64,000 bases of DNA from Pseudomonas sp. Marseille-Q3773 (GTDB taxonomy: Bacteria; Pseudomonadota; Gammaproteobacteria; Pseudomonadales; Pseudomonadaceae), in contig NZ_OU745390.1 in NCBI RefSeq assembly GCF_916618955.1, positions 4,216,001-4,280,000 on the forward strand, given 5' to 3'. A program made the position numbers and the translations under genes. Below are positions 22,473 to 46,375 of this stretch, in pieces (position 1 is the stretch's first letter; every line of letters starts with the position of its first letter). Below the pieces are notes generated by a model. The model was not told where the DNA came from. It was given only the letters and a program-made list of their open reading frames with translations, and did no database searches.

Positions 22473-22907
22473 TCAGGCAACCTTGCTCCGGCACAAAAGC
22501 CCGGCAACCGAATAGGCCCCCGGCCCGGTCAAGGCAAGCCCGCCATAAAGGGCCACCAGCAACCAGGCAAACTGACCTTGCTCCAGCGTCCAGTCCGGGT
22601 GCACGAGTACCAGCGCTATCAGCAATACCGCCAGCACCGGCAGGCAAGCCAGACGTGCGGCAACCCCCAGCATCAGCAACAGCGGGCAGACCACTTCGGC
22701 AAATACCGCCAGCCCCAACGTCAGCGCTGCGCCCAGGCCGAAGGGATCTTCAATGCGCTGCAGCTCTGCGCTCCAGTTCAACAACTTGGGCAGGCCATGG
22801 ACGAACAGCAACAGCAAGGCGGCCATGACCCGCAGGAACAACAGGCCGCTGGCGGTCAGGCGTGGCGATGGGGCATCAAGGAAGGGCTGCAGGCGAGGCA
22901 TGAGCAT
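22473..22907 (-). CDS. DoxX-family membrane protein
   Basis: A 144-residue DoxX/DoxD-like inner-membrane protein with four hydrophobic segments. The family pattern is seen in LLFLRVMAALLLLFVHGLPKLLNW, FAEVVCPLLLMLGVAARLACLPV and the final ALYGGLALTGPGAYSV. Family members associate with redox/thiol stress complexes or quinone reduction, but no specific role can be deduced. It precedes, on the same strand, nothing closely; a 102-base gap separates it from the receiver gene upstream. Confidence 0.85.
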   Translation of the reverse strand: MLMPRLQPFLDAPSPRLTASGLLFLRVMAALLLLFVHGLPKLLNWSAELQRIEDPFGLGAALTLGLAVFAEVVCPLLLMLGVAARLACLPVLAVLLIALVLVHPDWTLEQGQFAWLLVALYGGLALTGPGAYSVAGLLCRSKVA

Positions 22908-23009: not shown

Positions 23010-23378
23010 TCACCGGCTGCCGGCCAAGGCCTCTTCTACCGCCTTGAGCAGTATTTCTTCGGAAAACGGCTTCCCCAGGCAGGCCAGCGCCCCCTGCCCC
23101 ATCGCCGCCTGCACCGAGCCGTCATCCCAATGCGCCGACATGCAGATCACTGGCAAGCGCCAGCTCTGCTGCGCCAGCTCACGCTGTACCTCCAGCCCGC
23201 TCATGCCGGGCATCTTCAGGTCCAGCAACACGCAGCCCGCCTCGCCCGCCAGGGGCGAGGCGAGGAAGGCTTCCCCAGCGGCAAACGTCAAGGTCTCGAA
23301 CCCCGCCGAACGCAGCAGATTGGCCAGGCTCTTGCGCACTGACGCATCGTCGTCGACGATGCACACCCCTCTGCTCAT
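23010..23378 (-). CDS. Stand-alone receiver-domain response regulator
   Basis: A 122-residue single-domain response regulator. The acidic pair is at D9-D11 (CIVDDDAS), the phosphoacceptor is D53 (LLDLKMPGMSG), the conserved Ser/Thr position is S81 (CMSAHW) and K103 is in LGKPFSEE, so it appears phosphorylation-competent. It has no output domain. The ATG overlaps the stop of the upstream regulator gene (ATGA), showing co-translation. It is FixJ/NarL-like in its receiver and could be a phosphate sink or shuttle in the pathway of the divergent hybrid kinase. Confidence 0.88.
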   Translation of the reverse strand: MSRGVCIVDDDASVRKSLANLLRSAGFETLTFAAGEAFLASPLAGEAGCVLLDLKMPGMSGLEVQRELAQQSWRLPVICMSAHWDDGSVQAAMGQGALACLGKPFSEEILLKAVEEALAGSR

Positions 23379-24373
23379 GCGCCGCCCAGGCCCTCAGGTC
23401 GTGCTCCGAGGACGTTGTGCATGGCCGCCAGCTCCAGCAGCGAGCGGGACTGCATCTTGTTCATGATGTTCTTCTTGTGCACCTTGGTGGTCACCTCGCT
23501 GGTGCCGATCTGCCTGGCGATCTGCTTGTGCGACAAACCGCCAACCACCAGCGAGAACACCTGGCGCTCACGCTGGGTCAGGCGCTGGTACTTTTCCTCG
23601 ACCTGCCGCGCATGGTGCCACTTGCGGCCTTCGACCACGGCGCGGGCACGCACCGCCTGCAGCAGGGTCAGCAACTGGTCCTCGTCAAACGGCTTGGTGA
23701 GAAACTCCAGCGCCCCGCCACGCATGGCCTGGACGGTCATCGGGATGGTGCCGAAGCCGGTCATGAACACTATCGGCCAGGGCAGCGCCAGCCGGCGCAG
23801 CGCGTCCTGGACCTCCAGGCCGCTGGTATCGGGCAGGTGCATGTCCAACAGCAGACAGGCACAGGGGGTTTCCAGGCGGGCTTCGAACAGCGCCTCGGCA
23901 CTGGCGAACAAGTGATGCGGGATGTCCTGCGAGCGTAACAGGCGGCCCAAGGCGCTGCGCACCGACGGGTCGTCATCCACCACCAGCACCGGCACCGACC
24001 CGCTCAAGCGCTCATCGAGTGGCTCGACAGTTTCGGCCACGCTGCGCAACACTGCCTTGCCCAACGCCTGGGCTGGCGCCTCGAAGCTGATTTCGGCAGC
24101 CAGACGGTAGCCGCGACGCGGCACGGTCTGGATCAGGCTGCGGTCGCCAAAGGCCTTGCGCAACATCGACACCTGCACCTGCAGGTTGTTGTCCTCGACC
24201 ACCGTGCCGGCCCACACCTGGCTGAACAGCTCGTCCTTGCCGACCACCCGGCCGTTGGCCCTGATCAGCGTGGCCAGTACTTCGAAAGCACGCCCACCCA
24301 ACAGGATCGGCTTGCCGTCGACAAACACTTCGCGCCGCTCCAGCGACACCTGGGCATTGCCTATTCGGATCAT
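23375..24373 (-). CDS. Response regulator with winged-helix, receiver and LuxR domains
   Basis: A 332-residue regulator with two DNA-binding domains. Residues about 1-95 form an OmpR/CadC-type winged helix (GGRAFEVLATLIRANGRVVGKDELF and VSMLRKAFGD, ending VPRRGYRL). Residues about 127-240 are a receiver with D177 in LLLDMHLPD and K227 in TKPFDE. Residues about 262-322 are a LuxR/FixJ helix-turn-helix (LTQRERQVFSLVVGGLSHKQIA, SEVTTKVHKKNIM). The start MIRIGNAQVSLERREV fits the winged-helix domain; an extension to 24442 is unsupported. It overlaps the downstream receiver gene by four bases and diverges from the giant kinase gene, its likely partner. Confidence 0.88.
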   Translation of the reverse strand: MIRIGNAQVSLERREVFVDGKPILLGGRAFEVLATLIRANGRVVGKDELFSQVWAGTVVEDNNLQVQVSMLRKAFGDRSLIQTVPRRGYRLAAEISFEAPAQALGKAVLRSVAETVEPLDERLSGSVPVLVVDDDPSVRSALGRLLRSQDIPHHLFASAEALFEARLETPCACLLLDMHLPDTSGLEVQDALRRLALPWPIVFMTGFGTIPMTVQAMRGGALEFLTKPFDEDQLLTLLQAVRARAVVEGRKWHHARQVEEKYQRLTQRERQVFSLVVGGLSHKQIARQIGTSEVTTKVHKKNIMNKMQSRSLLELAAMHNVLGARPEGLGGA

Positions 24374-24572
24374 GGCTTCCTCGCACGGGCACCGGCAATT
24401 TCGCTGCCTGGGCAGCCTAGGCCAGCGAACGCGTTCAGACAATTATCCCGAGGGATAGGTTGGTCTGAGGACTATACAAAAGCCCGCCAGCTGCCAGGGG
24501 ACGATAACGGACAACAGCGTGCCCGTTCCTGCCAAGCAAGCTGTAACCCGCATCAGCACTGGGCCCGCTGCG

Positions 24573-24578
24573 TATACT
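24573..24578 (+). promoter_or_regulatory. Possible -10 element of the hybrid kinase gene
   Basis: TATACT lies 34 bases upstream of the kinase start within the 238-base divergent region; the surrounding GCGTATACTCGCGCC is like the lptM element. No strong -35 is seen, so this is tentative. Confidence 0.3.
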
Positions 24579-24611
24579 CGCGCCTCAGGATGTCGCTAGC
24601 AGGGGTGCATT

Positions 24612-27600
24612 ATGCTCGATGAACGCCTTGCCCACAGGCCCATCGATTACGACCAGTCGATCGACGAGGGCTGGCTGAACCGATGCGAGATCAGCGCGCT
24701 GGGCCAGGAAGGCGAGCTCAGCTACTTCCGCCTGCGCGACCCGGCCACCCGTCAGGCCTGGATCGCCGTACGCGCCCCGCTCGAGGCCCCCGCCGCCTGC
24801 CAGCGCCTGGAACGTGACTACCGCCTGCAACTGGACCCACAGTGGGCGGTAGTCCCGTCGGCGTTCGTGCGTTCGGCCGAAGGCCCATTGCTGGTGTACC
24901 CGGCCGGCCGCTCGGTCGCCGACCTGCTCGCCGACGGCCCGCTGGCGCTGACGCCGTTTCTGGACATCGCGGTAAATGCTGCCAATGCCCTGGCACAGGC
25001 GCACCAACACAATGTGCTGCACGGAGCGCTGCAGCCCGGGCATGTGTGCCTGCATGGCCACCAGCGGGTGCGGCTGGGCTTCTTTCGCGCCGACCACGCG
25101 CAGCGACTCAGCGACCAGGGCGCCCCGCTCGGTAACTGGGCCTACCTGGCGCCGGAGCAGGTTTGCCCGCACGGCAGCAGCAGCGACCGCCGCAGCGACA
25201 TCTATGCCCTGGGCGCCATCCTCTACCAGCTATTGCTGGGAGAGCTGCCACTGGCCGGCCGCGACACCCAGCATTGGCGCCAGCTGCATGCCGGCGTACA
25301 GCCGCGGGCGGCCTGCGAAGTGAACGGCAACGTACCACAGCCCCTCAGCCTGATTCTGGCCAAGGCTTTGGCCAAAGAGCCGGACGCCCGCTACCAGAGC
25401 GCACGCGCCCTGGCGGTCGACCTGGCTCATTGCCAGCGGCAATGGGCGGCCACCCAGACCATGGCCCCCTTCACCCCAGGTTGCGCCGACCCGGTCGCTC
25501 CCAGCCGCGTGCGCCTGTATGGCCGCAGCACCGAGCAGCAGGCAATCGCCCTGCTGCTCAAGGCCATGCGCCGCGACAGCGCGCCACAAGTCCTGCTCAT
25601 CAACGGTGCAGTCGGCATGGGCAAGTCGAGCCTGGTCGAAGCCGCCCTCAAGGCCGACACCGAGGGCTACCGCGCCGTCGGCAAGTGCAACAGCCTGGCC
25701 CAGGCCGTGCCCTACACGCCCTGGGTTGACATACTCGGTGCGCTGACCACCCAGTTGCTGGCCAAGAACAGCCAGGACCTGGACACCCTGCGCCGCGAGA
25801 TCCTGCAGCGCATCAAAGGCCATGGCCGCCTGCTCGGCAAACTGGCCCCGGACCTGCAGCTGATTCTCGGCCCGCAGCCGCAACTGCCGGCCAAGCTTTC
25901 GCGCCTCGGGTTGCACAAGGAACTGCACGCGATCATTGAATTCCTCCAGGTTTTCAGCCGCCCTGGACAACCGCTGGTACTGTTCTTCGACGACCTGCAA
26001 TGGGCTGACGACGCCTCCCGGCAGCTGCTGGCCCAATTGCTGGCGGAGGCGCCCGATAACCTGCTGCTGATGTTCGCCTGCAACAACGACGCGCCCACCA
26101 GCAGCCCGCCACTGACCATACCCGCAACGCTGCGCAGCACCACGCTGAACCTGCAACCGCTGGGTGTCGAGGCGGTAACCGCACTGATTGGCGAGCGCTA
26201 CCACGTCGCCCCCGAGGATGCGTTGCCGCTGGCCCAAAGGGTTCATGACAAGACAGCCGGCAACCCGTTCTTCATCAACCAGATCCTCAAGGCCATGGTC
26301 GAAGACCAGCTGTTCACCTTCGACACCCATGCCATGCGCTGGTCGTGGTGCCTGCACGCCGTGGCCCGACACTGCTACGCCGACAATGTCGCCGACCTGA
26401 TGATCCAGCGTCTGGCGCGCCTGCCCGCAGCGCAACGCGACCTGTTACGGGTCGCCAGCGCGGCGGGCAGCCGCTGCGATCAGCGCCTGCTGCGCCAGGT
26501 ACTCGCCCAACCGCCAGGCGAACCGTTGAAAGCCTTGATTGGCGCGGGTTTCCTGCAATCAGGCGCGAACGGTTTGAGCTTCACCCATGACCGGGTGATG
26601 GAGGCCGCCTACGCTCTCACCCCGGCGCCCGAGCGCGCCTCGCTGCACGCACGCATTGTCCTGGCCATGCGCCAGGCCTGGGCAGGGCACCTGCACGAGG
26701 TACTGTTCGAGCTCGCCAGCCAGCTGCAACGCGCCAGCCCATGCGGGTTTGCAGCGGATGACTGCGAAGCGTTCCTGCAGCTTCTGCGCGAAGCGGCATC
26801 ACGCGCACGCGACCGTGGCGCCTTCGAGCAAACCGCTGATTACCTGCATACTGCCGAGCAGTTGCTGCAGCACGGCGCCTCGCTGGAAAGCCGCACCACA
26901 CATGGCTTTGCCATCGCCTGCATGGCGACGGAATGCGACATTCAGCTATCGCGGACGAGCAGCGCCGAAGCCCGCCTGACGGAATGCCGCCAGCGCGCAC
27001 ACTCGGCGTTGGACCAGGCACGAGCGTGCCGCCTGCAAGCGTTGCTGTGCACCTTGCGCGGCGACTATCAGGTGGCCATCGACAGCGCCCTGTCCGGCCT
27101 GGACCTGCTGGGTATAAACCCGGGGCGGGGCGTCGACTGGCAACAGGTCGAGGCCTGTCATGCCCATGTACAGGCTCTGGTCGAACAGAAAGGCCGGCAT
27201 TGCCTGGAGTCGCTGCCGCGCACCGACTCAGAGGAAGTGACGGTAGCCATCAGCCTGCTGGCCACGCTGTCATCCTCGTTTTTCGTAAAGGACGACATCT
27301 GTTTCCTGCACCTGGCCAAGCTCATGGAAATGTCGCTGCAGCATGGCGTCGCCCCGGGCAGCACCTACGGCATGGCCTGGTACGGGGTGATGATTGCCGA
27401 GCGTTTCGGTGCCTATCATGACGGCCATGCCTATTGCCTGGCCGCGCTCAAGCTGATCGAGCGGCACGGTCTCGAGGCCGACCTGACCAGTGCCCTGCTG
27501 GCCCTGGACCAGGTCAGCGCCTGGACCTCGCCCATGGAGTTCGCCCGCCGAACCGCGCTCGACGCAGTCCACTCGACGCGCCTGAGCGGCGACCTGGCGA

Positions 27601-29660
27601 TGAGCTGCTACGCCTGCAACCACCTGGTTTCCGACTCGCTGTTCATGGGCCGCTACCTGCCGGAAGTGGTCGAGGAAGTGGCGCAAGGCCTGGCCACCGT
27701 GCGGCGCCACGGCTACCACGATGTCGAACAGATCCTGCAGGCCCAGCAAGCGTTCGTCGCCACCCTCGGCGGTATGCCCGGCCCGGCCTCGGCCGCTTAT
27801 TCAAAATCCCCTACCACGCGGTTCTTCCAGCACCTGTTCGCCGGCATGGGCGCCTTCTACATGGGCAATATTGCGCAGGCCATGCGCAACCTCGCATTGG
27901 CCGCTGACCACGCCTGGGCTGCACCGGCACACATCAACCTGGCCGACTACCACCTGTTCCGCGGCCTGGCGCTGGGCAGCCCGGAGGCCCCCGGCAACCT
28001 GGCCGACAAGCTGCGCGAGCTGCATACCCTGCGCGAGCGCTTCAGCCGCTGGGCCGGCTTCAACCAGGCCACCTTCCGCAACAAGCTGCTGCTGATCGAG
28101 GGCGTGATCGCCAAGCTCGAAGGCGACGGCCTGGCTGCGATCCGCTGCTTCGACCAGGCGCAGATCGCCGCTACTGCCGCCGGTTTCATCCACGAGCAGG
28201 CGCTGGCCCATGAACAACTGGCCGAGGTGTGCATTCCCAGCGGCCTGATTTCCGGCGCCAACCTGCACCTGCGTATCGCCCGCGACTGCTTCCATATCTG
28301 GGGGGCGAGCGGCAAGGTGCACCAGCTGGAGACGCTGCACCCGTTCCTGCGCACCCAGCCGATCCAGGAAACCTATCGCGCCACCCAGCAGGCCAGGCTG
28401 GACCTGGAAGCCGGTATCGAAGCCGCGCGCGCGTTGTCCGAGGAAGTGCTGCTCGAAGGCCTGATCGAAACCCTGATGGGCCACCTGACCCAGCACTCCG
28501 GCGCCGACCACGGCGCGCTGCTGATCGTCAGCGGTGCCGAGTTCCAGATGGCCGCCCTCGCCTACATCGATGATGACGGACTGCACGTGAGCATGGACAA
28601 CTGTCAGAGGTTCATGACCCAGGCGCCGCTGTCGGTCATCAACGCCACCATGCGCACCCGCAAGCCGCTGGTACTCAACGATGCCCTCAGCGATTGTCCG
28701 GAGGCTTTCCGCCAGCAGTTACAGGCGCGCAACGCCCGCTCGGTGCTGTGCCTGCCGCTGGTGATCCAGGGCGTGCTGATCGGCCTGGTATACCTGGAAA
28801 ACCGCCTGGTGCCGAACCTGTTCGGCAGCCAGCGCCTGGCCATGCTGGAAATCCTCGCCTCACAGGCAGCGGTGTCGCTGCAAACCGCCAAGTTCTATAC
28901 CCGCCTCGCCGAGGACAACCAGACGCGCGCCCAGATGGAAGCCGAATTGCGCCGCTCGCGGGCCGAATTGGCGCGCAGCGCGCACCTGCAGGTGATGAAC
29001 GAGCTGTCGGCCTCCATCGCCCATGAAATCAGCCAGCCGCTGCTGGGCATCGCTTCCAACGCCGCGGCCAGCCTGCGCTGGCTGAAACGCGCCGAGCCCA
29101 ACCTGGAAGAAGCGATTGCCGGCCTGGAAGACATCCGCAATGACAGCGAACGGGCCGCCAACATCGTGCGGGCGCTGCGGGCGTTGGCCAGGCAGTCGCC
29201 GATGCAACTCAAGGCGGTGAAGCTGGACGAACTGATCCGCGAGGTGGTGCGCCTGACCTCGGCCGATGCCGCCAGGAGCCGGGTCGACGTGCAGACGCAG
29301 TTGCAAGCCGGGGTGTGCGTGACAGCCGACCCGGTGCAGTTGCAGCAACTGATATACAACCTGATCACCAATGCCCTGGAGGCGCTGGCGGGTTATCGCA
29401 GTGATGGCGTGCTGCAGATTGCCTCGGCGTTGGTCGAGGGTGGCGTGGAGATCTGTGTGGACGACAACGGGCCGGGGATTGCTGCAGACGAGCGCGAGCG
29501 TGTCTTCGATGCGTTTCATACCACCAAGACCGGCGGCATGGGCATGGGTCTGGCGATCTGCAGCTCGGTGGCTCAGGCGCACGGCGGGCAATTGCAGGCC
29601 CTGGTGTCGCAGCTGGGTGGGTGCCGGATTCGTTTCACCTTGCCGGTGAATCCTTCCTAG
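24612..29660 (+). CDS. Giant pseudokinase-ATPase-GAF-histidine kinase
   Basis: A 1682-residue cytoplasmic sensor. Residues about 1-280 are a Ser/Thr kinase fold that keeps the LAPEQ and RRSDIYALGAILYQLLLGELP landmarks but has HGAL (137-140) where HRDL is expected and LGFF (155-158) where DFG is expected, so it is probably a pseudokinase. An AAA/STAND ATPase follows, with Walker A GAVGMGKSS (332-340) and Walker B LVLFFDDLQWAD. A long helical TPR-like region runs to about 1260. A GAF domain (about 1280-1420) precedes a coiled-coil and a histidine kinase with H1471 (SIAHEISQPL), N1587 (LITNALEAL), DNGPGI and GGMGMGLAI. It is the likely partner of the divergent regulators. Confidence 0.9.
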   Translation: MLDERLAHRPIDYDQSIDEGWLNRCEISALGQEGELSYFRLRDPATRQAWIAVRAPLEAPAACQRLERDYRLQLDPQWAVVPSAFVRSAEGPLLVYPAGRSVADLLADGPLALTPFLDIAVNAANALAQAHQHNVLHGALQPGHVCLHGHQRVRLGFFRADHAQRLSDQGAPLGNWAYLAPEQVCPHGSSSDRRSDIYALGAILYQLLLGELPLAGRDTQHWRQLHAGVQPRAACEVNGNVPQPLSLILAKALAKEPDARYQSARALAVDLAHCQRQWAATQTMAPFTPGCADPVAPSRVRLYGRSTEQQAIALLLKAMRRDSAPQVLLINGAVGMGKSSLVEAALKADTEGYRAVGKCNSLAQAVPYTPWVDILGALTTQLLAKNSQDLDTLRREILQRIKGHGRLLGKLAPDLQLILGPQPQLPAKLSRLGLHKELHAIIEFLQVFSRPGQPLVLFFDDLQWADDASRQLLAQLLAEAPDNLLLMFACNNDAPTSSPPLTIPATLRSTTLNLQPLGVEAVTALIGERYHVAPEDALPLAQRVHDKTAGNPFFINQILKAMVEDQLFTFDTHAMRWSWCLHAVARHCYADNVADLMIQRLARLPAAQRDLLRVASAAGSRCDQRLLRQVLAQPPGEPLKALIGAGFLQSGANGLSFTHDRVMEAAYALTPAPERASLHARIVLAMRQAWAGHLHEVLFELASQLQRASPCGFAADDCEAFLQLLREAASRARDRGAFEQTADYLHTAEQLLQHGASLESRTTHGFAIACMATECDIQLSRTSSAEARLTECRQRAHSALDQARACRLQALLCTLRGDYQVAIDSALSGLDLLGINPGRGVDWQQVEACHAHVQALVEQKGRHCLESLPRTDSEEVTVAISLLATLSSSFFVKDDICFLHLAKLMEMSLQHGVAPGSTYGMAWYGVMIAERFGAYHDGHAYCLAALKLIERHGLEADLTSALLALDQVSAWTSPMEFARRTALDAVHSTRLSGDLAMSCYACNHLVSDSLFMGRYLPEVVEEVAQGLATVRRHGYHDVEQILQAQQAFVATLGGMPGPASAAYSKSPTTRFFQHLFAGMGAFYMGNIAQAMRNLALAADHAWAAPAHINLADYHLFRGLALGSPEAPGNLADKLRELHTLRERFSRWAGFNQATFRNKLLLIEGVIAKLEGDGLAAIRCFDQAQIAATAAGFIHEQALAHEQLAEVCIPSGLISGANLHLRIARDCFHIWGASGKVHQLETLHPFLRTQPIQETYRATQQARLDLEAGIEAARALSEEVLLEGLIETLMGHLTQHSGADHGALLIVSGAEFQMAALAYIDDDGLHVSMDNCQRFMTQAPLSVINATMRTRKPLVLNDALSDCPEAFRQQLQARNARSVLCLPLVIQGVLIGLVYLENRLVPNLFGSQRLAMLEILASQAAVSLQTAKFYTRLAEDNQTRAQMEAELRRSRAELARSAHLQVMNELSASIAHEISQPLLGIASNAAASLRWLKRAEPNLEEAIAGLEDIRNDSERAANIVRALRALARQSPMQLKAVKLDELIREVVRLTSADAARSRVDVQTQLQAGVCVTADPVQLQQLIYNLITNALEALAGYRSDGVLQIASALVEGGVEICVDDNGPGIAADERERVFDAFHTTKTGGMGMGLAICSSVAQAHGGQLQALVSQLGGCRIRFTLPVNPS

Positions 29661-29708: not shown

Positions 29709-30335
29709 TCAACGCGAGCTCAAGACCGCATAGCTGTTCATCAGGTTGCGATAGTTGGGGATGCGCTGCGACAGCAGGTTGCCCAGCCCCTCGATGTCGT
29801 TGCGCCAGTCGCGATGCAGTTCACAGGCCACCGAGAACCAGTTCATCATCTGCGCCCCCGCCTGGGTCATGCGCACCCAGGCCGCCTGCTGCACGGTCTC
29901 GTTGAAGGTGCCCGAGGCATCGGTGACCACGAACACTTCAAAGCCTTCCGCCAACGCCGACAGGGTCGGGAAGGCCACGCACACATCGGTTACCACACCG
30001 GCGATGATCAGCTGCTTGCGGCCAGTGGCCTTGATTGCCTTGACGAAATCTTCGTTGTCCCAGGCGTTGATCTGGCCGGGGCGGGCGATGTATGGCGCGT
30101 CCGGGAACATTTCTTTCAGCTCGGGCACCAGCGGGCCGTTCGGGCCTTGCTCGAAGCTGGTGGTGAGGATGGTCGGCAGGCCGAAGAACTTGGCCAGGTC
30201 GCCCAGGGCCAGCACGTTGTTCTTGAACTCGTTGGGCGAAAAGTCCTGCACCAGCGAGATCAGGCCGGTCTGGTGGTCGACCAGCAGCACCACGGCGTCG
30301 TCTTTGTTCAAGCGCTTGTAATCGGGTTGGCTCAT
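29709..30335 (-). CDS. YcaC-like isochorismatase-fold hydrolase, paralog 1
   Basis: A 208-residue cysteine hydrolase of the isochorismatase superfamily, close to E. coli YcaC. The catalytic aspartate is D20 in VVLLVDHQTGLI and the nucleophile cysteine lies in IAGVVTDVCVAFP near residue 119. The YcaC-specific ITTSFEQGPNGPLVPELK-like and IARPGQINAWDNEDF blocks are present. The substrate of this family is unknown. It differs from the two other copies in this window at many positions (for example VQQAAWVRMTQ), so it is an older paralog. A small AraC-type gene lies just upstream on the same strand. Confidence 0.9.
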   Translation of the reverse strand: MSQPDYKRLNKDDAVVLLVDHQTGLISLVQDFSPNEFKNNVLALGDLAKFFGLPTILTTSFEQGPNGPLVPELKEMFPDAPYIARPGQINAWDNEDFVKAIKATGRKQLIIAGVVTDVCVAFPTLSALAEGFEVFVVTDASGTFNETVQQAAWVRMTQAGAQMMNWFSVACELHRDWRNDIEGLGNLLSQRIPNYRNLMNSYAVLSSR

Positions 30336-30407
30336 GGGGGTGACTCCTTGGGTTGGGATAACGGGCCGGCACTGTCCGCAGGGGTTATACCGGCGGATAG
30401 CTTCGGC

Positions 30408-30788
30408 TTAAGAAAGTACCTGCGCCTGGCGCCACGCCTTCGGCGGCTGGCCGACCAGGCGGCTGAATGCGCGGGTGAAATGGGCCTGGTCGCAAAAGCC
30501 GCATTCCAGGCTCACGTGGGTGATGGGCGCTTCGGTGGCGAGCAGGCGCTTGGCCTTTTCCATGCGCGCCAGCAGGCGCCAGGCCTGGGGCGACAGGCCG
30601 GTAGCCACTTTGAACGCGCGGGAGAAATGGCTGCGAGTGAGGTTGCATACCGCGGCGATCTCGATGATCGACAACGGGCTGTGCAACATCAGTTCCTTGG
30701 CCCGGCGCAGCCGCGCGGGCGTTAGTGCGCCGGGGGTTTGCAGCGGCGCTTCGGGCGTCCCAGGGTGCATGGCGACTCTCCTGTTCAA
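30408..30788 (-). CDS. Short AraC-family regulator (DNA-binding domain only)
   Basis: A 126-residue protein that is almost entirely an AraC/XylS DNA-binding domain. Both helix-turn-helix units are present: SIIEIAAVCNLTRSHFSRAFK and ITHVSLECGFCDQAHFTRAF with the closing VGQPPKAWR. There is no sensor domain. It sits 73 bases upstream of the YcaC-like gene, co-directional with it, and is divergent from a GlxA-type regulator. The start could also be the internal methionine MHPGTPEAPL. Control of the hydrolase is a reasonable inference. Confidence 0.85.
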   Translation of the reverse strand: MNRRVAMHPGTPEAPLQTPGALTPARLRRAKELMLHSPLSIIEIAAVCNLTRSHFSRAFKVATGLSPQAWRLLARMEKAKRLLATEAPITHVSLECGFCDQAHFTRAFSRLVGQPPKAWRQAQVLS

Positions 30789-34955: not shown

Positions 34956-35585
34956 TTACTTACCCGCAGTCAGTGCGTTGTAGCTGGTAATCAGGTTGCG
35001 GTAGTCGGGGATGTGGTTGGAGCACAGCGCCGCCAGGCCTTCGATGTCGTTGCGCCAGTCGCGGTGCAGTTCACAGGCCACGCCGAACCAGGTCATCAGT
35101 TGCGCACCGGCCTGGCTCATGCGGTCGTGGGCAGCGTCGCGGGTCATGGCGTTGAAGGTGCCGGAAGCATCGGTCACCACGAATACGTCGAACTCTTCTT
35201 CCAGGGCGGACAGTGCCGGGAAGGCTACACAGACCTCGGTCACCACGCCGGCGATGATCAGCTGCTTCTTGCCGGTGGCCTTCACTGCCTTGACGAAATC
35301 TTCGTTGTCCCAGGCATTGATCTGGCCTGGGCGGGCAATGTACGGGGCGTCCGGGAACAGCGCTTTCAGCTCGGGAACCAGCGGGCCGTTCGGGCCTTGC
35401 TCGAAGCTGGTGGTGAGGATGGTCGGCAGGTTGAAGAACTTGGCCAGGTCGGCCAGGGCCAGCACGTTGTTCTTGAACGCGTCCGGCTCGATGTCGCGCA
35501 CCAGCGACAGCAGGCCAGCCTGATGGTCGACCAGCAAGACAGCGGCGTCGTCTTTGTTCAGGCGGTTGTAGGTGAATTTGCTCAT
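34956..35585 (-). CDS. ycaC: YcaC isochorismatase-fold hydrolase, paralog 2
   Basis: A 209-residue cysteine hydrolase very close to E. coli YcaC. D20 (VLLLV-D-HQAG region), R85 within IARPGQ and nucleophile C119 (GVVTEVCVAFP) mark the active site; YcaC crystal structures place a Cys-Asp pair here but the substrate is unknown. It is almost identical to the copy at 45746-46375, differing at one internal Ser/Ala and the last few residues. It stands alone between a strong terminator and a divergent LysR gene with a shared dyad operator, so autoregulated LysR control is likely. Confidence 0.93.
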   Translation of the reverse strand: MSKFTYNRLNKDDAAVLLVDHQAGLLSLVRDIEPDAFKNNVLALADLAKFFNLPTILTTSFEQGPNGPLVPELKALFPDAPYIARPGQINAWDNEDFVKAVKATGKKQLIIAGVVTEVCVAFPALSALEEEFDVFVVTDASGTFNAMTRDAAHDRMSQAGAQLMTWFGVACELHRDWRNDIEGLAALCSNHIPDYRNLITSYNALTAGK

Positions 35586-39004: not shown

Positions 39005-40267
39005 ATGATCCGCGCAAACCCCGGACCAGGCCGCGCCCTGCTCGCCACCCTTGCCCTCTGCCCACTGCTCAGCCAGGCCGACGAAGCTGGCTGGTCGCTG
39101 CTCAGCCGCAACTACTTCCTGCACAGCGACTTCCGCTCGCCCTCCGGTAGCGGCCAGAACTACCGCCAGGAATGGGCCCAGGGCTTCATCGGCGACATCC
39201 GTTCCGGTTTCACCGAAGGCACGCTCGGCGTCGGTATCGATGCCCACGGTTTTCTCGGCTTCAAGCTCGACGGCGGTCGCGGCCATGCCGGTACCGGCCT
39301 GCTGCCGCGCGACAGTGATGGCCGCGCCGAGTCCGGCTACTCCAGTGCCGGCGCTGCACTCAAGCTGCGCCTGGGCGACACCCAGCTGCGCTACGGCGAG
39401 ATGACCGTGGAAACCCCGGTGTTCGATACCGCCGACAAACGCCTGCACCCGGAATATGCCACCGGCTGGTTGCTGGAGAACCGCAGCCTGCCCGACTGGC
39501 GCCTGCAAGCCGGGCGCTTCACTGCCTTCAACAACCAGGACAACAGCGCTAGCCATGATGATTTCAGCGGCTACGGCGCCAGCACCGCCAACCACGCCAT
39601 CAGCCTGGCCGGCGCCACCTTCGCGCCCCCAGGCCCATTTGGCGCTGCGCTGTACGCCGGGCAGTTGCAGGACACCTGGCGCCAGGCCTATCTCAACCTG
39701 AACCTTGCCGAGGGCAACTGGCGCCTGGACGGTAACCTGTACAAGACCCGCGACACCGGCAACGCCAGCGCCGGGGCGATCGACACCCTCGCCTACAGCT
39801 TGCTGGCCAGGTACAGCTTCGGTGCCCAGGCGCTGAGCCTGGGCTATCAGAAGGTCGAAGGCGACACCCCGTTCGACTTCGTCGGTGGCGACTCCATCTA
39901 CCTGGCCAACTCGATCAAGTACGCCGACTTCAACGGCCCCGGCGAGCGCTCCTGGCAAATCCGCCATGACCTCGATTTCGCCACCCTCGGTGTGCCCGGC
40001 CTGAGCCTGATGGGCCGCTACGTCAGCGGCCGCGGCATCGACGGCAGCCACGCCCCGGCACGCGGCGCCTACGTCGGCCAGTATGGCCAGGGCGGCAAGC
40101 ACTGGGAGCGCGACATCGACCTGAAATACGTGGTGCAGTCGGGCGCCGCCAGGGACTTGAGCCTGTCGCTCTCCCATGTCAGCCACCGCGCCAACCAGGC
40201 CCAGGCCGGCGATGACATCGATCGCCTCTACCTGATCATCGAATACCCACTCAAAGGCAGCTTCTGA
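39005..40267 (+). CDS. OprD-family outer membrane porin
   Basis: A 420-residue OprD-family porin. A signal peptide (about 1-25, ending SQA-DEAG) precedes an 18-strand barrel pattern, with the family landmarks LLSRNYFLHSDFRS, EWAQGFIGDIRSGFTEGTLGVGIDA, LEVGDTQLRYGEM-like and a C-terminal aromatic residue in YPLKGSF. OprD porins pass amino acids, peptides or aromatic acids. An MFS gene starts two bases after its stop, so porin and inner-membrane transporter are likely expressed together. Confidence 0.92.
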   Translation: MIRANPGPGRALLATLALCPLLSQADEAGWSLLSRNYFLHSDFRSPSGSGQNYRQEWAQGFIGDIRSGFTEGTLGVGIDAHGFLGFKLDGGRGHAGTGLLPRDSDGRAESGYSSAGAALKLRLGDTQLRYGEMTVETPVFDTADKRLHPEYATGWLLENRSLPDWRLQAGRFTAFNNQDNSASHDDFSGYGASTANHAISLAGATFAPPGPFGAALYAGQLQDTWRQAYLNLNLAEGNWRLDGNLYKTRDTGNASAGAIDTLAYSLLARYSFGAQALSLGYQKVEGDTPFDFVGGDSIYLANSIKYADFNGPGERSWQIRHDLDFATLGVPGLSLMGRYVSGRGIDGSHAPARGAYVGQYGQGGKHWERDIDLKYVVQSGAARDLSLSLSHVSHRANQAQAGDDIDRLYLIIEYPLKGSF

Positions 40268-40268
40268 C

Positions 40269-41867
40269 ATGAGCACATCCCCTTCAGGCGCCTGGAGCCC
40301 GTTGCGCAACACCACCTTCCGCATGCTGTGGCTCGCCACCATTGCCTCCAACATCGGCACCTGGATGCACGAGGTAGGCGCCGGCTGGCTGATGACCACG
40401 CTGTCGGCCAGCCCGCTGCACGTGGCGCTGATCCAGGTGGCCGGCTCGCTGCCGATGTTCTTCCTGGCCCTGCCGGCCGGCGCCGCGGCGGATATCGTCG
40501 ACAAGCGCCGCTACCTGTTGCTGGTGCAACTGTGGATGGCCGGCGTGGCCGCTGTACTGGCGGCCCTGACCTTGCTCGGGCTGATGAACGTCACCTTGCT
40601 GCTGGTACTGACCCTGGCGCTGGGCATCGGTACGGCACTGATGATGCCGGCGTGGAGCGCGCTGACGCCGGAGCTGGTGGGCAAGCAGGACCTGGCCAAC
40701 GCAGTGGCGCTTTCCAGTGTCGGCATCAATGTGTCCCGTGCCATCGGCCCGGCATTGGCAGGGGTAGTGGTGAGCATGGTCGGCCCGTGGCTGACCTTTG
40801 CCTTGAATGCCATCTCGTTCGCTGGCGTGATCCTGGTGTTGTTGCTGTGGAAACGCGAAGTGAAGGAGCCACTGCTGCCGGCCGAGCGCTTCGTTGGCGC
40901 CATGCGTACCGGCTTGCGTTTCGCCCGCAGTGCCAAACCGTTGCAGGCGGTGATGCTGCGCGCGCTGGCGTTCTTTTTCTGCGCCAGTGCCGGTACTTCG
41001 CTGCTGCCGCTGATCGTGCGTGGCGAGATGCGCGGCAGCGCAGCAGATTTCGGCCTGCTGCTGGCCGCCATCGGTATTGGCGCAGTGGCTGGCGCCACCT
41101 TGCTGCCACGCCTGCGCGAACGCATCAGTCGCGACCGCCTGGTGATGCTGGCCAGCCTGCTGTATGCCCTGTTCCTGTTGGCCTTGGCGCTGGTGCGTAA
41201 CTTTTATGTGCTATTGCCGGCGATGCTGCTCAGCGGCGCGGCGTGGATCGCAGTGCTGTCCAACCTACAAGTGGCGGCGCAGACCTCGGTGCCGGCCTGG
41301 GTGCGGGCGCGCGCGTTGTCGGTGTACATCCTGATCTTCTTCGGTGCCATGGCCGCTGGCGGGCTGCTGTGGGGCACGCTGGCCAGTCATGCATCGATCA
41401 CCCTGAGCTTGCTGCTGGCCGCAGGCGGGCTGGCTTTCGGCACCTTGCTGACCTGCAGGGTGACGCTGCCGGAAACCGAAGCCGAAGAGCTGACCCCGTC
41501 GCTGCACTGGCCGGTGCCGGTGCTGAGCGATGAGCTGGACCAGGACAACGGGCCAGTGATGGTCACCGTCGAGTACCACATCGAACCGGCCAAGGCCGCC
41601 GCCTTCCAGCGGGCCGCGCGGGAGCTGGAGGCGATGCGCAAGCGCAATGGCGCATTGTCGTGGGGGTTGATGCGCGACAGTGCCGATCCGGCAGTGTGGC
41701 TGGAGTTCTTTTTTGAAGAGTCGTGGCTGGAGCATTTGCGGCACCACCACCGGGTGACCCGGGGTGAGCTGAAGATCGAGGCCCGAGTGCGGATGTTGCA
41801 GACCGATGGGGTGGAAGTGAAGATCCGGCATCTGTTGGCTGGAGGTGAGCACAAGGCTCACCATTGA
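40269..41867 (+). CDS. MFS_3-type (EntS-like) transporter with C-terminal ABM-like domain
   Basis: A 532-residue major facilitator of the MFS_3 (EntS-like) group. Residues 1-410 form the transporter, beginning WSPLRNTTFRMLWLATIASNIGTWMHEVGAGWLM. The C-terminal ~110 residues (VTVEYHIEPAKAAAFQRAARELEAMRKRNGAL and after) look like an antibiotic-biosynthesis-monooxygenase fold attached to the carrier. It begins two bases after the OprD porin stop and is probably cotranscribed with it. Substrate is unknown. A separate ABM-domain protein is encoded 3 kb downstream. Confidence 0.85.
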   Translation: MSTSPSGAWSPLRNTTFRMLWLATIASNIGTWMHEVGAGWLMTTLSASPLHVALIQVAGSLPMFFLALPAGAAADIVDKRRYLLLVQLWMAGVAAVLAALTLLGLMNVTLLLVLTLALGIGTALMMPAWSALTPELVGKQDLANAVALSSVGINVSRAIGPALAGVVVSMVGPWLTFALNAISFAGVILVLLLWKREVKEPLLPAERFVGAMRTGLRFARSAKPLQAVMLRALAFFFCASAGTSLLPLIVRGEMRGSAADFGLLLAAIGIGAVAGATLLPRLRERISRDRLVMLASLLYALFLLALALVRNFYVLLPAMLLSGAAWIAVLSNLQVAAQTSVPAWVRARALSVYILIFFGAMAAGGLLWGTLASHASITLSLLLAAGGLAFGTLLTCRVTLPETEAEELTPSLHWPVPVLSDELDQDNGPVMVTVEYHIEPAKAAAFQRAARELEAMRKRNGALSWGLMRDSADPAVWLEFFFEESWLEHLRHHHRVTRGELKIEARVRMLQTDGVEVKIRHLLAGGEHKAHH

Positions 41868-42034: not shown

Positions 42035-44008
42035 TTAGAAAGCGAAGCACGAACAACCCAACGCCCCCCAGAAACCCTGGAAGTCATTCACCGGCACATT
42101 CGAATGCCGCGCCTTCTCATGGCTGTGCGCATGCACCCCGCAAGGCCCGACGCACTGGTGCGCCGCTGCCGCCAGCGATGGCGTACCCACGCGCCAGTGA
42201 CCCGGCACCTTGGTCACCGGCGACCACTCCGGCAGCACCGGCACCTGTGGCGGGCCGAGCTTGTCGAACTCGGCCGCAGCGTACACCACCTTGCCATCGA
42301 CCACGGTCAGCACCGACTCGATGCCCTTGATCGCTTCTTCATCGACGCTGAAGAAGTCCAGCGACAATGCCGCCAGGTCGGCCAGCTGGCCCACCTTGAT
42401 CTGCCCCTTCTTGCCCTGCTCGCTGGAGAACCAGGCGCTGCCCTGGGTAAATAGCTGCAATGCAGTGTCGCGGCTGAGGCCTTCAGGGTAAAGCTCCATG
42501 CCACCGACGGTCTTGCCGCTGACCAACCAGTACAACGAGGTCCATGGGTTGTAGCTGGACACGCGGGTGGCGTCGGTACCAGCCCCCACCGGCACGCCCA
42601 TGTCGAGCATGCGCTTGATCGGCGGGGTCTGCTCGGCAGCCTTGGCGCCGTAGCGGTCGACGAAGTATTCACCCTGGAAGGCCATGCGGTCCTGGATGGC
42701 GATACCACCGCCCAGCGCACGCACGCGTTCGATGTTCTGCGGGGTGATGGTTTCGGCGTGGTCGAAGAACCACGGCAGGCCGTTGAACGGAATGTCGCGG
42801 TTGACCTTCTCGAACACGTCGAGCATGCGTGTGATCGATTCGTTGTAGGTGGCGTGCAGGCGGAATGGCCAGCGCTGCTCGACCAGGTGGCGCACCACCG
42901 GCTCCAGCTCTTGCTCCATGGTCTGCGGCAGGTCCGGGCGCGGTTCGAGGAAGTCCTCGAAGTCGGCGGCGGAGAACACCAGCATCTCGCCGGCGCCGTT
43001 GTGGCGCAGGAAGTCGGTGCCGCTGTGCAGTTTGACGCTGGAGGTCCACTTACGGAAGTCGTCCAGCTCTTCCTTGGGCTTCTGGGTGAACAGGTTGTAG
43101 GCGATGCGCACGGTCAACTGGTTGTTGTCGGCGAGCTGCTGGATCACCTGGTAGTCGTCCGGGAAGTTCTGGTAGCCACCACCGGCATCGATGGCGCTGG
43201 TCAGGCCCAGGCGGTTGAGTTCGCGCATGAACTGGCGGGTAGAGTTGACCTGGTACTCCAGCGGCAACTTCGGCCCCTTGGCCAGGGTGGCGTAGAGAAT
43301 CATCGCGTTGGGGCGGGCAATCAGCATGCCGGTCGGGTTGCCGAACTTGTCACGCTGGATCTCGCCACCCGGCGGGTTGGGCGTGTCCTTGCTGTAGCCG
43401 ACAGCCTTGAGCGCAGCGCGGTTGAGCAACGCGCGGTCATACAGGTGCAGCAGGAACACTGGCGTGTCCGGGGCGGCCTGGTTGATTTCTTCCAAGGTGG
43501 GCATGCGTTTTTCGGCGAACTGGAATTCGTTCCAGCCACCGACCACGCGCACCCACTGCGGGGTGGGCGTGCGCGCGGCCTGGTCCTTGAGCATGCGCAG
43601 GGCATCGGCCACCGACGGCACGCCTTCCCAGCGCAGCTCCAGGTTGTAGTTCAGGCCACCACGAATCAGGTGCAGGTGCGAGTCGTTCAGGCCCGGAATG
43701 ACCGTGCGCTGCTTGAGATCGATGATCTGCGTGGAGGCGCCCTTGTGGGCCATGGCCTCGGCGTCGTTGCCCACGGCGATGAAACGGCCATCCTTGATGG
43801 CGACGGCGGTCGCGGTGGGTTTTTCACGATCAACGGTGTGCAGTTTACCGTTGAACAGAATCAGGTCGGCGGTCATGGAACCTCCTTGAGTGGATGCGTA
43901 AGCGGAACCGGTAAAGGGCAATGCGGACCAGAGCGCACCGGCGGCACCGAGCACGCTGCTGGTGGCGAGGAACTGGCGACGGGTCTTGTCGTTGCGGTCC
44001 TGTGACAT
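42035..44008 (-). CDS. Tat-exported amidohydrolase (YtcJ/Amidohydro_3 type)
   Basis: A 657-residue metal-dependent amidohydrolase. A twin-arginine signal, RRQFLATSSVLGAAGALWSA and ending YAS, is at the N-terminus, so the enzyme is exported to the periplasm. The beta-lactam-free metal motif VIPGLNDSHLHLIRGG (D-S-H-x-H) and further His-bearing blocks (PWFFDHAETI, GVPVGAGTDATRVSSYNPW) mark the YtcJ branch. The C-terminus is unusual: cysteines and histidines (HQCVGPCGVHAHSHEKARH, GCSCFAF). The start at 44008 follows GGAGAAG. Substrate unknown. It is the last of a minus-strand run from ycaC paralog 3. Confidence 0.86.
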   Translation of the reverse strand: MSQDRNDKTRRQFLATSSVLGAAGALWSALPFTGSAYASTQGGSMTADLILFNGKLHTVDREKPTATAVAIKDGRFIAVGNDAEAMAHKGASTQIIDLKQRTVIPGLNDSHLHLIRGGLNYNLELRWEGVPSVADALRMLKDQAARTPTPQWVRVVGGWNEFQFAEKRMPTLEEINQAAPDTPVFLLHLYDRALLNRAALKAVGYSKDTPNPPGGEIQRDKFGNPTGMLIARPNAMILYATLAKGPKLPLEYQVNSTRQFMRELNRLGLTSAIDAGGGYQNFPDDYQVIQQLADNNQLTVRIAYNLFTQKPKEELDDFRKWTSSVKLHSGTDFLRHNGAGEMLVFSAADFEDFLEPRPDLPQTMEQELEPVVRHLVEQRWPFRLHATYNESITRMLDVFEKVNRDIPFNGLPWFFDHAETITPQNIERVRALGGGIAIQDRMAFQGEYFVDRYGAKAAEQTPPIKRMLDMGVPVGAGTDATRVSSYNPWTSLYWLVSGKTVGGMELYPEGLSRDTALQLFTQGSAWFSSEQGKKGQIKVGQLADLAALSLDFFSVDEEAIKGIESVLTVVDGKVVYAAAEFDKLGPPQVPVLPEWSPVTKVPGHWRVGTPSLAAAAHQCVGPCGVHAHSHEKARHSNVPVNDFQGFWGALGCSCFAF

Positions 44009-44141
44009 GGTCTTCTCCGTCTGGTGGCGGCGCCGGCAGGCGCAACTGCGGAGCATGCCGGTGAGTGCAGGGCCAGGGCTTGGATGGATGTGCGGTGGGT
44101 TGTAGAAGGTTAGCCCTGTTCAAGCGTTGTGCTGCCTGGGC

Positions 44142-44206: not shown

Positions 44207-45025
44207 TTACTTCTGCAGGAACGCCAGCAGGTCCTCGTTCAGCTGCTGGGCATGCGTCACGGCAAACCCGTGCGGCGCCCCGGCATACACCTTCAGTTCA
44301 GCTCCGCGAATCAGCTCCGCCGCCTGCTTGCCGGTGGTTTCCAGCGGCACGATCTGGTCATCGTCGCCGTGGATCACCAGGGTCGGCACATCGACCTTGG
44401 CCATGTCCGGACGGAAGTCGGTCTCGGAAAACGCCGTCACGCAATCCAGGGTGCCCTTGATCGATGCCATCAGCGCGATGTTCAAGGTTTGCGTCTGCAC
44501 GCCCTGGGACACCTGCTGCCCATGGTTCAGGCCATAGAACGGCGTGGCAAAATCGGCGATGAACTGCGCCCGGTCGGCACGCAGGCCGGCGCGGATGCCT
44601 TCGAACACCGACAGGTCGACACCCTGTGGGTTGTCGTCACGCTTGCCGAAGATCGGCGTCACTGCGCCCAGCAAGACCAGGCCGGCCACACGCTCGCTAC
44701 CGTGACGGGCGATGTAGCGGCTGACATCGCCACCGCCCATCGAGAAGCCCACCAGGGTCACCTCGCGCAGGTCAAGGTGTTCGATCAGCTGGGCGATGTC
44801 GTCGGCGAAGGTGTCGTAGTCGTAGCCGCTCCACGGCTGGCTCGAACGGCCGAAGCCACGGCGGTCGAAGGCGATGGCGCGGTAACCGCGGCTGGCCAGG
44901 AACTCCATCTGCGAGTCCCACATGTCGGCATCCAGCGGCCAGCCGTGGCTGAACAGCACGGGCTTGCCACTGCCCCAGTCCTTGAAGTAGATCGAAGTGC
45001 CATCGCGGGTAACGAACGTGCTCAT
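44207..45025 (-). CDS. Alpha/beta hydrolase, PFE-type esterase / non-heme haloperoxidase
   Basis: A 272-residue alpha/beta hydrolase nearly colinear with the P. fluorescens aryl esterase/perhydrolase (PFE). The catalytic triad is S95 in LVGFSMGGGD, the aspartate in VIHGDDDQIVP and the histidine in GAPHGFAVTH. The oxyanion strand is SHGWPLDADMWD. PFE-type enzymes hydrolyse aryl and short-chain esters and can use peroxide, so true haloperoxidase activity should not be assumed. It follows the ABM protein gene by 38 bases on the same strand. Confidence 0.92.
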   Translation of the reverse strand: MSTFVTRDGTSIYFKDWGSGKPVLFSHGWPLDADMWDSQMEFLASRGYRAIAFDRRGFGRSSQPWSGYDYDTFADDIAQLIEHLDLREVTLVGFSMGGGDVSRYIARHGSERVAGLVLLGAVTPIFGKRDDNPQGVDLSVFEGIRAGLRADRAQFIADFATPFYGLNHGQQVSQGVQTQTLNIALMASIKGTLDCVTAFSETDFRPDMAKVDVPTLVIHGDDDQIVPLETTGKQAAELIRGAELKVYAGAPHGFAVTHAQQLNEDLLAFLQK

Positions 45026-45745: not shown

Positions 45746-46375
45746 TTACTTGTTGGCGTTGAAGGCGTTGTAGCTGGTAATCAGGTTGCGGTAGTCGGGG
45801 ATGTGGTTGGAGCACAGCGCCGCCAGGCCTTCGATGTCGTTGCGCCAGTCGCGGTGCAGTTCACAGGCCACGCCGAACCAGGTCATCAGTTGCGCACCGG
45901 CCTGGCTCATGCGGTCGTGGGCAGCGTCGCGGGTCATGGCGTTGAAGGTGCCGGAAGCATCGGTCACCACGAATACATCGAACTCTTCTTCCAGAGCCGC
46001 CAGAGCCGGGAACGCTACGCACACTTCAGTCACCACACCGGCAATGATCAGTTGCTTCTTGCCGGTGGCCTTCACGGCCTTGACGAAGTCTTCGTTGTCC
46101 CAGGCATTGATCTGGCCTGGGCGGGCGATGTACGGAGCGTCCGGGAACAGTGCTTTCAGCTCGGGCACCAGCGGGCCGTTCGGGCCTTGCTCGAAGCTGG
46201 TGGTGAGGATGGTCGGCAGGTTGAAGAACTTGGCCAGGTCGGCCAGGGCCAGCACGTTGTTCTTGAACGCGTCCGGCTCGATGTCGCGCACCAGCGACAG
46301 CAGGCCAGCCTGATGGTCGACCAGCAAGACAGCGGCGTCGTCTTTGTTCAGGCGGTTGTAGGTGAATTTGCTCAT
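45746..46375 (-). CDS. ycaC: YcaC isochorismatase-fold hydrolase, paralog 3
   Basis: A 209-residue YcaC-type hydrolase, nearly identical to the protein encoded at 34956-35585. The two differ at a single internal position (Ser to Ala in FPA-S/A-LEEE) and in the last few residues (NAFNANK versus NALTAGK). The same D20 and C119 catalytic positions are present. It heads a minus-strand run with the ABM-domain protein, the PFE-type esterase and the amidohydrolase. Conservation of the protein despite silent changes in the DNA implies selection or recent gene conversion. Confidence 0.93.
   Translation of the reverse strand: MSKFTYNRLNKDDAAVLLVDHQAGLLSLVRDIEPDAFKNNVLALADLAKFFNLPTILTTSFEQGPNGPLVPELKALFPDAPYIARPGQINAWDNEDFVKAVKATGKKQLIIAGVVTEVCVAFPALAALEEEFDVFVVTDASGTFNAMTRDAAHDRMSQAGAQLMTWFGVACELHRDWRNDIEGLAALCSNHIPDYRNLITSYNAFNANK

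Follow-up and report, generated by a model that had tools for sequence, protein, structure and literature searches.

Pseudokinases of the CP1 type have been described as cytosolic proteins of Proteobacteria and Cyanobacteria in which a kinase fold is fused to a COG3899-type ATPase, often accompanied by GAF or PAS domains (PMC12599244). A Ser/Thr-kinase fold, a GAF domain and a histidine kinase also share one polypeptide in cyanobacterial cbSTKIII/HstK (PMC2176072, PMC1262709). An N-terminal Ser/Thr-kinase domain, a central GAF domain and a histidine kinase are likewise found in fungal Mak2/Mak3 and Chk1; Mak2/Mak3 are reported to act in oxidative stress signalling, and the double mutant was not peroxide-sensitive (PMC5383687). 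We set beside these systems a locus of Pseudomonas sp. Marseille-Q3773, contained in a 64-kb stretch (hereafter the window, meaning all the DNA analysed) of its 5.56-Mb genome, in which a 1682-residue sensor kinase is divergently arranged with a two-headed response regulator and a lone receiver. A conserved candidate operator occupies the divergent promoter, and we propose that the locus is probably a self-regulating, locally acting two-component system for a YcaC-centred hydrolase response.

The window kinase resembles the CP1 proteins in carrying a kinase fold with degraded motifs joined to an ATPase, the latter assigned through its AAA_16 match. The covered sections of the CP1 account contain no partner regulators, operator, YcaC link or histidine kinase output (PMC12599244). 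The likeness to cbSTKIII/HstK is one of domain layout; those proteins are described as dual kinases, unlike the window pseudokinase. The fungal kinases carry their own receiver, whereas the bacterial kinase would signal to separate proteins, and a Pfam scan found no Response_reg domain in it, which sets it apart from hybrid kinases of the Mak2/Chk1 type. STAND ATPases such as MalT comprise an NTPase with Walker A and B motifs followed by a TPR-like solenoid; the window kinase differs from MalT by its histidine kinase output and by the pseudokinase at the other end. Public annotation names such proteins trifunctional kinases. To our knowledge no proteobacterial member of the family has been given a function, and searches of the open-access PubMed Central (PMC) literature found none. 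The initial annotation, made from the sequence of this DNA, had regarded the combination of kinase, regulator and receiver as undescribed. This holds in so far as searches of open-access PMC brought up no paper on the trio, but the kinase family itself has been described, as CP1 pseudokinases. The fused regulator, the operator family, a small AraC partner and an association with YcaC and amidohydrolase were not found in that literature either, and it is these that we consider new. The operator, the AraC partner and the hydrolase link had escaped the initial annotation.

The three genes lie where that annotation had placed them, with the same phospho-acceptors (H1471, D177 and D53). The kinase gene occupies 24612..29660 on the plus strand and was characterized by Pfam matches, alignment and AlphaFold models. 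On the minus strand, the 332-residue regulator (23375..24373) has a winged helix at residues 20-91, a receiver at 129-238 with D177, and a LuxR helix-turn-helix (HTH) at 264-318, matching Pfam Trans_reg_C, Response_reg and GerE, so that the two DNA-binding heads do stand at opposite ends as had been read. The longest open reading frame (ORF) of the regulator begins at TTG 24442. Homologues align from ATG 24373, with M1 and I2 invariant in 19 sequences, and we therefore take the 332-residue form, to which the residue numbers of the initial annotation also correspond. The lone receiver (23010..23378, minus strand; 122 residues, D53) overlaps the regulator by four bases, as also noted initially, and this overlap is kept in 27 of 34 pairs. 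With Asp, Thr and Lys in its receiver and a GerE HTH, the regulator belongs to the NarL/FixJ type. It scores 165.3 bits against the FixJ equivalog NF006900, below the cut-off of 255, and has the extra winged helix. It shares receiver, LuxR HTH and phospho-site with FixJ/StyR-type regulators (PDB 1yio/1zn2, 148 bits, named 'response regulatory protein', which we take to be StyR), and differs from them in its additional N-terminal winged helix of OmpR/CadC type.

The kinase, the regulator and the receiver travel together. We searched 298 Pseudomonas genomes with residues 1-1296 of the kinase (E up to 1e-60) and with the regulator (E up to 1e-40), and obtained kinase matches in 72 genomes and regulator matches in 84. 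Full-length regulators with winged helix, receiver and LuxR head account for 36 of the 84, and every one of these has a kinase match no more than about 1.4 kb away; both divergent and co-directional arrangements occur. We then assembled 119 kinase loci, duplicates included, and looked for a LuxR-type regulator within 3 kb and a lone receiver within 3.5 kb: 82 loci carry the former, 74 the latter and 69 both. In all 69 the phospho-acceptor Asp or His is intact in lone receiver, regulator and kinase. The regulator receivers keep Asp and Lys throughout and Thr in 68 (Ser in one), while the lone receivers keep Thr or Ser throughout and Lys in 68, with one gap. The linkage across Pseudomonas and the preserved phospho-acceptors support the earlier proposal of a single pathway. 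Mirror-tree correlations of 0.93, 0.92 and 0.89 do not correct for how closely the species are related, and we do not treat them as proof.

Beyond the genus, 398 genomes of the phylum and 194 of the order were sampled. Full-length regulators were matched in Pseudomonas only (3 among the 398 and 2 among the 194 genomes), which is a statement about the sampling, as only 5 or 10 regulator candidates were scored per genome. In other genera the kinase occurs with a receiver-LuxR regulator, often plus a lone receiver. In four loci (L094, L135, L177, L179) the winged helix belongs to a protein of its own that also has a STAND/AAA-like ATPase, and a putative winged-helix ORF of comparable length stands apart from the regulator in L095, L096 and L098. 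Because other loci have the winged helix on its own protein or go without one, the two-headed regulator is, as these comparisons place it, one arrangement in a series in which the winged helix is separate, fused or absent.

The divergent promoter of the window contains the palindrome TTATCCC-GA-GGGATAG (a 7-2-7 arrangement at 24443..24458), a candidate operator by its conservation, which precedes the regulator ATG by 85 bp and the kinase ATG by 169 bp. Alignment of the divergent promoters of two clades, A and B, gave the consensus TTATCCC-GA-GGGATAR. Among 30 distinct divergent loci (L132 was dropped as a duplicate of L084), whose proteins are down to about 50% identical, L083 alone lacks the palindrome and the other 29 keep it. 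Relative to the regulator ATG it sits between -85 and -105 in 28 of these loci and at -157 in the remaining one, L133, where a long hairpin-like insertion separates operator and regulator start. Three further loci (L099-L101) have it with more changes at about -101 to -104. In its own genome the operator is nearly unique, with one site at up to one mismatch and one further place with two. A weight matrix run over the window ranked it first at 30.4 bits, followed by a site in the ycaC promoter at 9.6 and a third at 7.5. Palindromes of L102 and L104-L107 were also considered as operators of target promoters and rejected, being sited at the 3' end of the AraC gene.

Which head would read the palindrome can be judged from a second set of loci. 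In 21 Pseudomonas loci with another type of kinase, the regulator is of the receiver-LuxR kind or none was found, and a fused winged helix is missing. In 18 of these a sister palindrome of the same 7-2-7 form, CTATACC-TA-GGTATAG, precedes the lone receiver at a distance of up to about 100 bp; it was not found in L111, L112 and L152, and its background is 44 of 4294 80-bp windows. Since systems without a fused winged helix keep a sister palindrome, the LuxR head appears the likelier reader, and HTHs of the NarL/FixJ type are known for such inverted heptamers. The lone-receiver gene would, by the same comparison, belong to the regulon. The opposite assignment, in which the winged-helix head reads the palindrome and the LuxR head has other targets or none, seems unlikely to us. 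Its best arguments are that in L094-L096 and L098 the palindrome precedes the separate winged-helix gene, and that one genome (G244) kept a winged-helix relic after the rest was lost. Besides the sister palindrome, it has against it that no palindrome was found at that relic's locus (L123). The relic itself (8857-9168 of L123) corresponds to the winged-helix part of the regulator only, is 71% identical over 104 residues and has a YcaC nearby; the locus gave no match for kinase, lone receiver or the remainder of the regulator.

The comparison also bears on the lone receiver, for which the initial annotation had left shuttle and sink side by side. A sister palindrome in front of the receiver gene favours a feedback sink or competitor, and the lone receiver most likely limits the response in this way. 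That it is instead a true phosphate shuttle, or an allosteric partner acting for example on the small AraC or a hydrolase, we hold to be improbable. The maintained coupling to the regulator through the four-base overlap and the invariant phospho-acceptor Asp would suit such a role, whereas the receiver was undetected in 6 of 41 fused-regulator loci (L100-L103, L105, L129), which retain kinase and regulator, and this argues against an obligatory shuttle. A relay would in addition require an HPt partner.

The sensor kinase itself combines a pseudokinase (residues 1-290), a STAND ATPase from about 296, a TPR superhelix (modelled at 691-1278), a GAF domain and a HisKA/HATPase unit at 1462-1680 with H1471 as phospho-acceptor. 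Pfam matches are Pkinase 99-267, AAA_16 301-486 (106.5 bits), GAF 1281-1423 and HATPase_c 1573-1680; HisKA at 1462-1528 scores 24 bits, slightly below its cut-off of 26.9. In 21 aligned kinases the STAND Walker A and B residues G335, G337, K338, D460 and D461 are invariant, as are H1471, N1583, N1587, D1618, G1620, G1622, G1644 and G1646 of the histidine kinase boxes. The protein thus has the phosphoacceptor His and the N and G boxes of a two-component sensor kinase, together with the Walker motifs and, from the model, the C-terminal repeat solenoid of a STAND NTPase. The AlphaFold model of residues 691-1278 is a nearly all-helical TPR-like superhelix with a mean predicted local distance difference test score (pLDDT) of 92.8, which agrees with the long helical region noted initially. 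Compared with the PDB, the model drew mostly TPR-type proteins, with TM-scores of 0.15-0.40 by query length among the 50 matches listed. With such low scores, the model clearly assigns the solenoid to a class, TPR-like, rather than to an exact relative. Against its own genome the kinase gave 49 matches, full-length at its own locus only, the other 48 being partial. Variants occur elsewhere: L179 (6737-9217) and L203 (6557-9511) are without the ATPase and TPR parts, L178 is without the ATPase and L109 without part of it, and both loci of genome G034 (L097, L127) have the kinase frame split into several ORFs.

Residues 1-298 are modelled as a complete protein-kinase fold (mean pLDDT 90.9; best match PknB, E 2.3e-19). 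Within it HGALQP stands for HRDxKP and LGFFR for DFG, and Arg54 occupies the position of the beta3 Lys, so that beta3 Lys, HRD Asp and DFG Asp are all lost. The reading of this domain as a pseudokinase, first made from HGAL and LGFF, is borne out by the motif loss, with which the Pfam match and the modelled fold agree. The stretch 137-165, covering the loop and DFG, was checked for catalytic residues supplied from elsewhere, and D161 is its sole Asp. The window protein and the kinases of the collected loci gave an alignment of 122 kinase domains, which includes three duplicates; 32 of the domains form the group of the window protein (the window, L069-L093, L129-L133 and L166; L089 and L093 are included though without the divergent arrangement). 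The DFG Asp is kept in one of the 122 (L150) and the beta3 Lys in one (L165; seven rows are gapped there). The HRD Asp survives in 75 of the 90 relatives that do not belong to the window's group and in none of the 32 that do. In these alignments, loss of catalytic residues is a hallmark of the whole kinase family and not peculiar to the window protein, and the pattern suggests a decay in two steps, with DFG and Lys lost family-wide and the catalytic loop then lost in the window's group. It is conceivable that the domain keeps an unusual phosphotransferase activity and that 'trifunctional kinase' is literally right. The complete fold and the HRD Asp of the 75 relatives would fit, yet with DFG Asp and beta3 Lys gone almost everywhere, no HRD Asp in the window's group and the domain interrupted by an insertion in L090-L092, we consider this very unlikely. 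That insertion lies before the catalytic loop, and in L090 and L091 it carries a repeat-like peptide, ASLLAKA, which presumably corresponds to a peptide of Pseudomonas REP elements.

As candidate output we identified ycaC (29709..30335, minus strand), an isochorismatase-family cysteine hydrolase that scores 400.4 bits against the NCBIfam equivalog NF041461 (cut-off 310) and is a predicted direct target. About 50-70 bp upstream of its start lies the weaker operator copy (30383..30402). Among 19 clade A loci, this stretch contains the best site of the ycaC promoter in 17, whereas in L078 and L129 an adjoining position scores better; L082 was excluded from this comparison as its ORF start is wrong. 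By mismatch count the site at 30386 is not significant alone (7 matches with up to 3 mismatches, versus 9.5 expected), and its weight comes from position and conservation instead. The relevant neighbourhood extends at least to 30788, the end of a gene for a small AraC-type regulator (30408..30788, minus strand; 126 residues, HTH only). No more than 2.5 kb separate this fourth conserved partner from the kinase in 40 of 41 fused-regulator loci and in 3 of 5 Pseudomonas loci whose winged-helix gene is separate, compared with 2 of 24 Pseudomonas kinase loci lacking such a gene, and with 1 of 45 and 0 of 5 loci in other genera.

The hydrolase link reaches beyond Pseudomonas. Of 51 kinase loci from outside the genus, 13 have a YcaC-type hydrolase as well as an amidohydrolase (Enterobacter twice, Silvania, Pseudescherichia, Phytobacter, Shewanella, Achromobacter, Cupriavidus, Rhizobium, Sphingomonas, Roseomonas, Herbaspirillum and one record labelled Mycobacterium), versus none of 15 control loci with a histidine kinase only; median lengths are 14.7 kb for the controls and 19.3 kb for the kinase loci. 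The same 51 loci hold an arylesterase-type hydrolase in 13 cases, DoxX in 7 and MFS_3 in 6. The window has this gene set at 39-46 kb, its amidohydrolase 12.4 kb from the kinase. Among the 72 kinase-positive Pseudomonas genomes an amidohydrolase lies within 15 kb of the kinase in at least 19, and far off or on another contig in others; it is present in all 72, as against 165 of 226 kinase-negative genomes. A kinase tree of 88 sequences, with hydrolase-linked labels assigned by hand, splits into two supported halves. The half that includes the window has 31 linked rows out of 45; the second half has 4 out of 43, among them the Sphingomonas and Achromobacter loci. The label changes 15 times on the tree compared with 27.8 in shuffles, none of 500 being as low. 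L166, where ycaC adjoins the kinase, and L087, with a distant YcaC, were left unlabelled, and the label of L107 rests on an amidohydrolase near the kinase of genome G148.

Several observations weigh against a YcaC-centred system under one operator. No palindrome was seen upstream of the regulator in L083, L102, L104-L107 and L109, and that of L103 is weak. The ycaC site has two mismatches in its 14-base core, a degree of match that chance would be expected to produce, and the ycaC promoters of L103-L105, L108, L123 and L179, which are more distant, show no such element. In the window itself, operator scores are low at the promoters of the two other YcaC copies, of DoxX, of the amidohydrolase and of the arylesterase. 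Neither regulator nor receiver lies within 3-3.5 kb in 32 of the 119 kinase loci, the 6 fused-regulator loci with an undetected receiver count here too, and 38 of the 51 non-Pseudomonas loci are without the YcaC/amidohydrolase pair. Since many loci are close kin, the counts are not independent, and the Fisher p of 6e-9 ignores phylogeny. Clade B (L084-L088, L090-L092) has no close ycaC, amidohydrolase or arylesterase next door, and distant YcaC relatives in L086 and L087 only, so ycaC is not a universal target. This last point, with the near-uniqueness of the full operator in the genome, would suit an alternative in which the hydrolase genes are passive neighbours at a stress or metabolism hot spot and the system controls itself, perhaps with the AraC gene. 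We regard this as rather doubtful, for the hydrolase-linked loci fall mainly into one of the two supported halves of the kinase tree while spanning Enterobacterales, Shewanella, Burkholderiales and Alphaproteobacteria, and clade A ycaC promoters keep the site.

On the YcaC-centred reading, which we prefer, a cytoplasmic signal would be sensed by the STAND ATPase and TPR solenoid of the kinase, as the logic of STAND proteins leads one to expect, with the pseudokinase and GAF domains serving as regulatory inputs. The histidine kinase would, as the linkage suggests, phosphorylate D177 of the regulator, whose LuxR head may bind the conserved TTATCCC-GA-GGGATAR and control its own operon, the kinase and, via the weaker copy, ycaC, by activation or repression; the winged-helix head would add another contact with DNA. 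Encoded in the same self-regulated operon, the lone receiver would compete for phosphoryl groups through D53 and damp the output. This output would be YcaC and, in part of the family, also the linked amidohydrolase, arylesterase, DoxX and exporter genes and the small AraC regulator, plausibly a detoxification response. The function of YcaC is stated to be unknown in a study in which the Pseudomonas aeruginosa protein reacts with electrophiles and the authors suggest a role connected with stress or nutrients (PMC4519933). Because of this reactivity, and because the fungal look-alikes are reported to act in oxidative stress signalling, our guess, a weakly supported one, is that the signal might be an electrophile or peroxide-type stress. 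More tentatively still than the YcaC-centred reading as such, the pseudokinase-gated STAND histidine kinase could be the dedicated sensor of a conserved proteobacterial detoxification module (YcaC, an arylesterase/perhydrolase-like enzyme and an amidohydrolase), a counterpart of the fungal Mak2/Chk1 stress kinases, with the two-headed regulator in Pseudomonas bringing two DNA sites together in one local control region. For the kinase family, these results supply an operator, a set of partners and candidate outputs. For YcaC they suggest a candidate regulator, and the loci form a natural series with the winged-helix head separate, fused or absent.

The remaining neighbours include a gene for a DoxX-family membrane protein (22473..22907, minus strand), a recurring neighbour of the system, and, on the plus strand, genes for an OprD-family porin (39005..40267) and an MFS_3 transporter (40269..41867). 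The minus strand carries the amidohydrolase_3 gene (42035..44056, start uncertain), presumably YtcJ-like, and the arylesterase gene (44207..45025), whose product is a relative of PDB 3hea and 1va4 (508 and 503 bits). Genes for such a transporter and such an amidohydrolase also lie near the kinase in other genera. The locus had been called an island; in the sense of foreign DNA this finds no support, because the GC content of 2-kb bins across 22-30 kb (0.654-0.665) lies inside the window range of 0.587-0.673. The 64-kb window contains no tRNA gene, and neither a sigma-70 scan (1 versus 0.6 in shuffles) nor a terminator scan (4 versus 5.0) gave a clear excess. Two further YcaC paralogues, at 34956..35585 and 45746..46375 on the minus strand, are near-copies of each other (602 of 630 bases identical), the duplicated segment of about 870 bp (92% identical) including upstream DNA.

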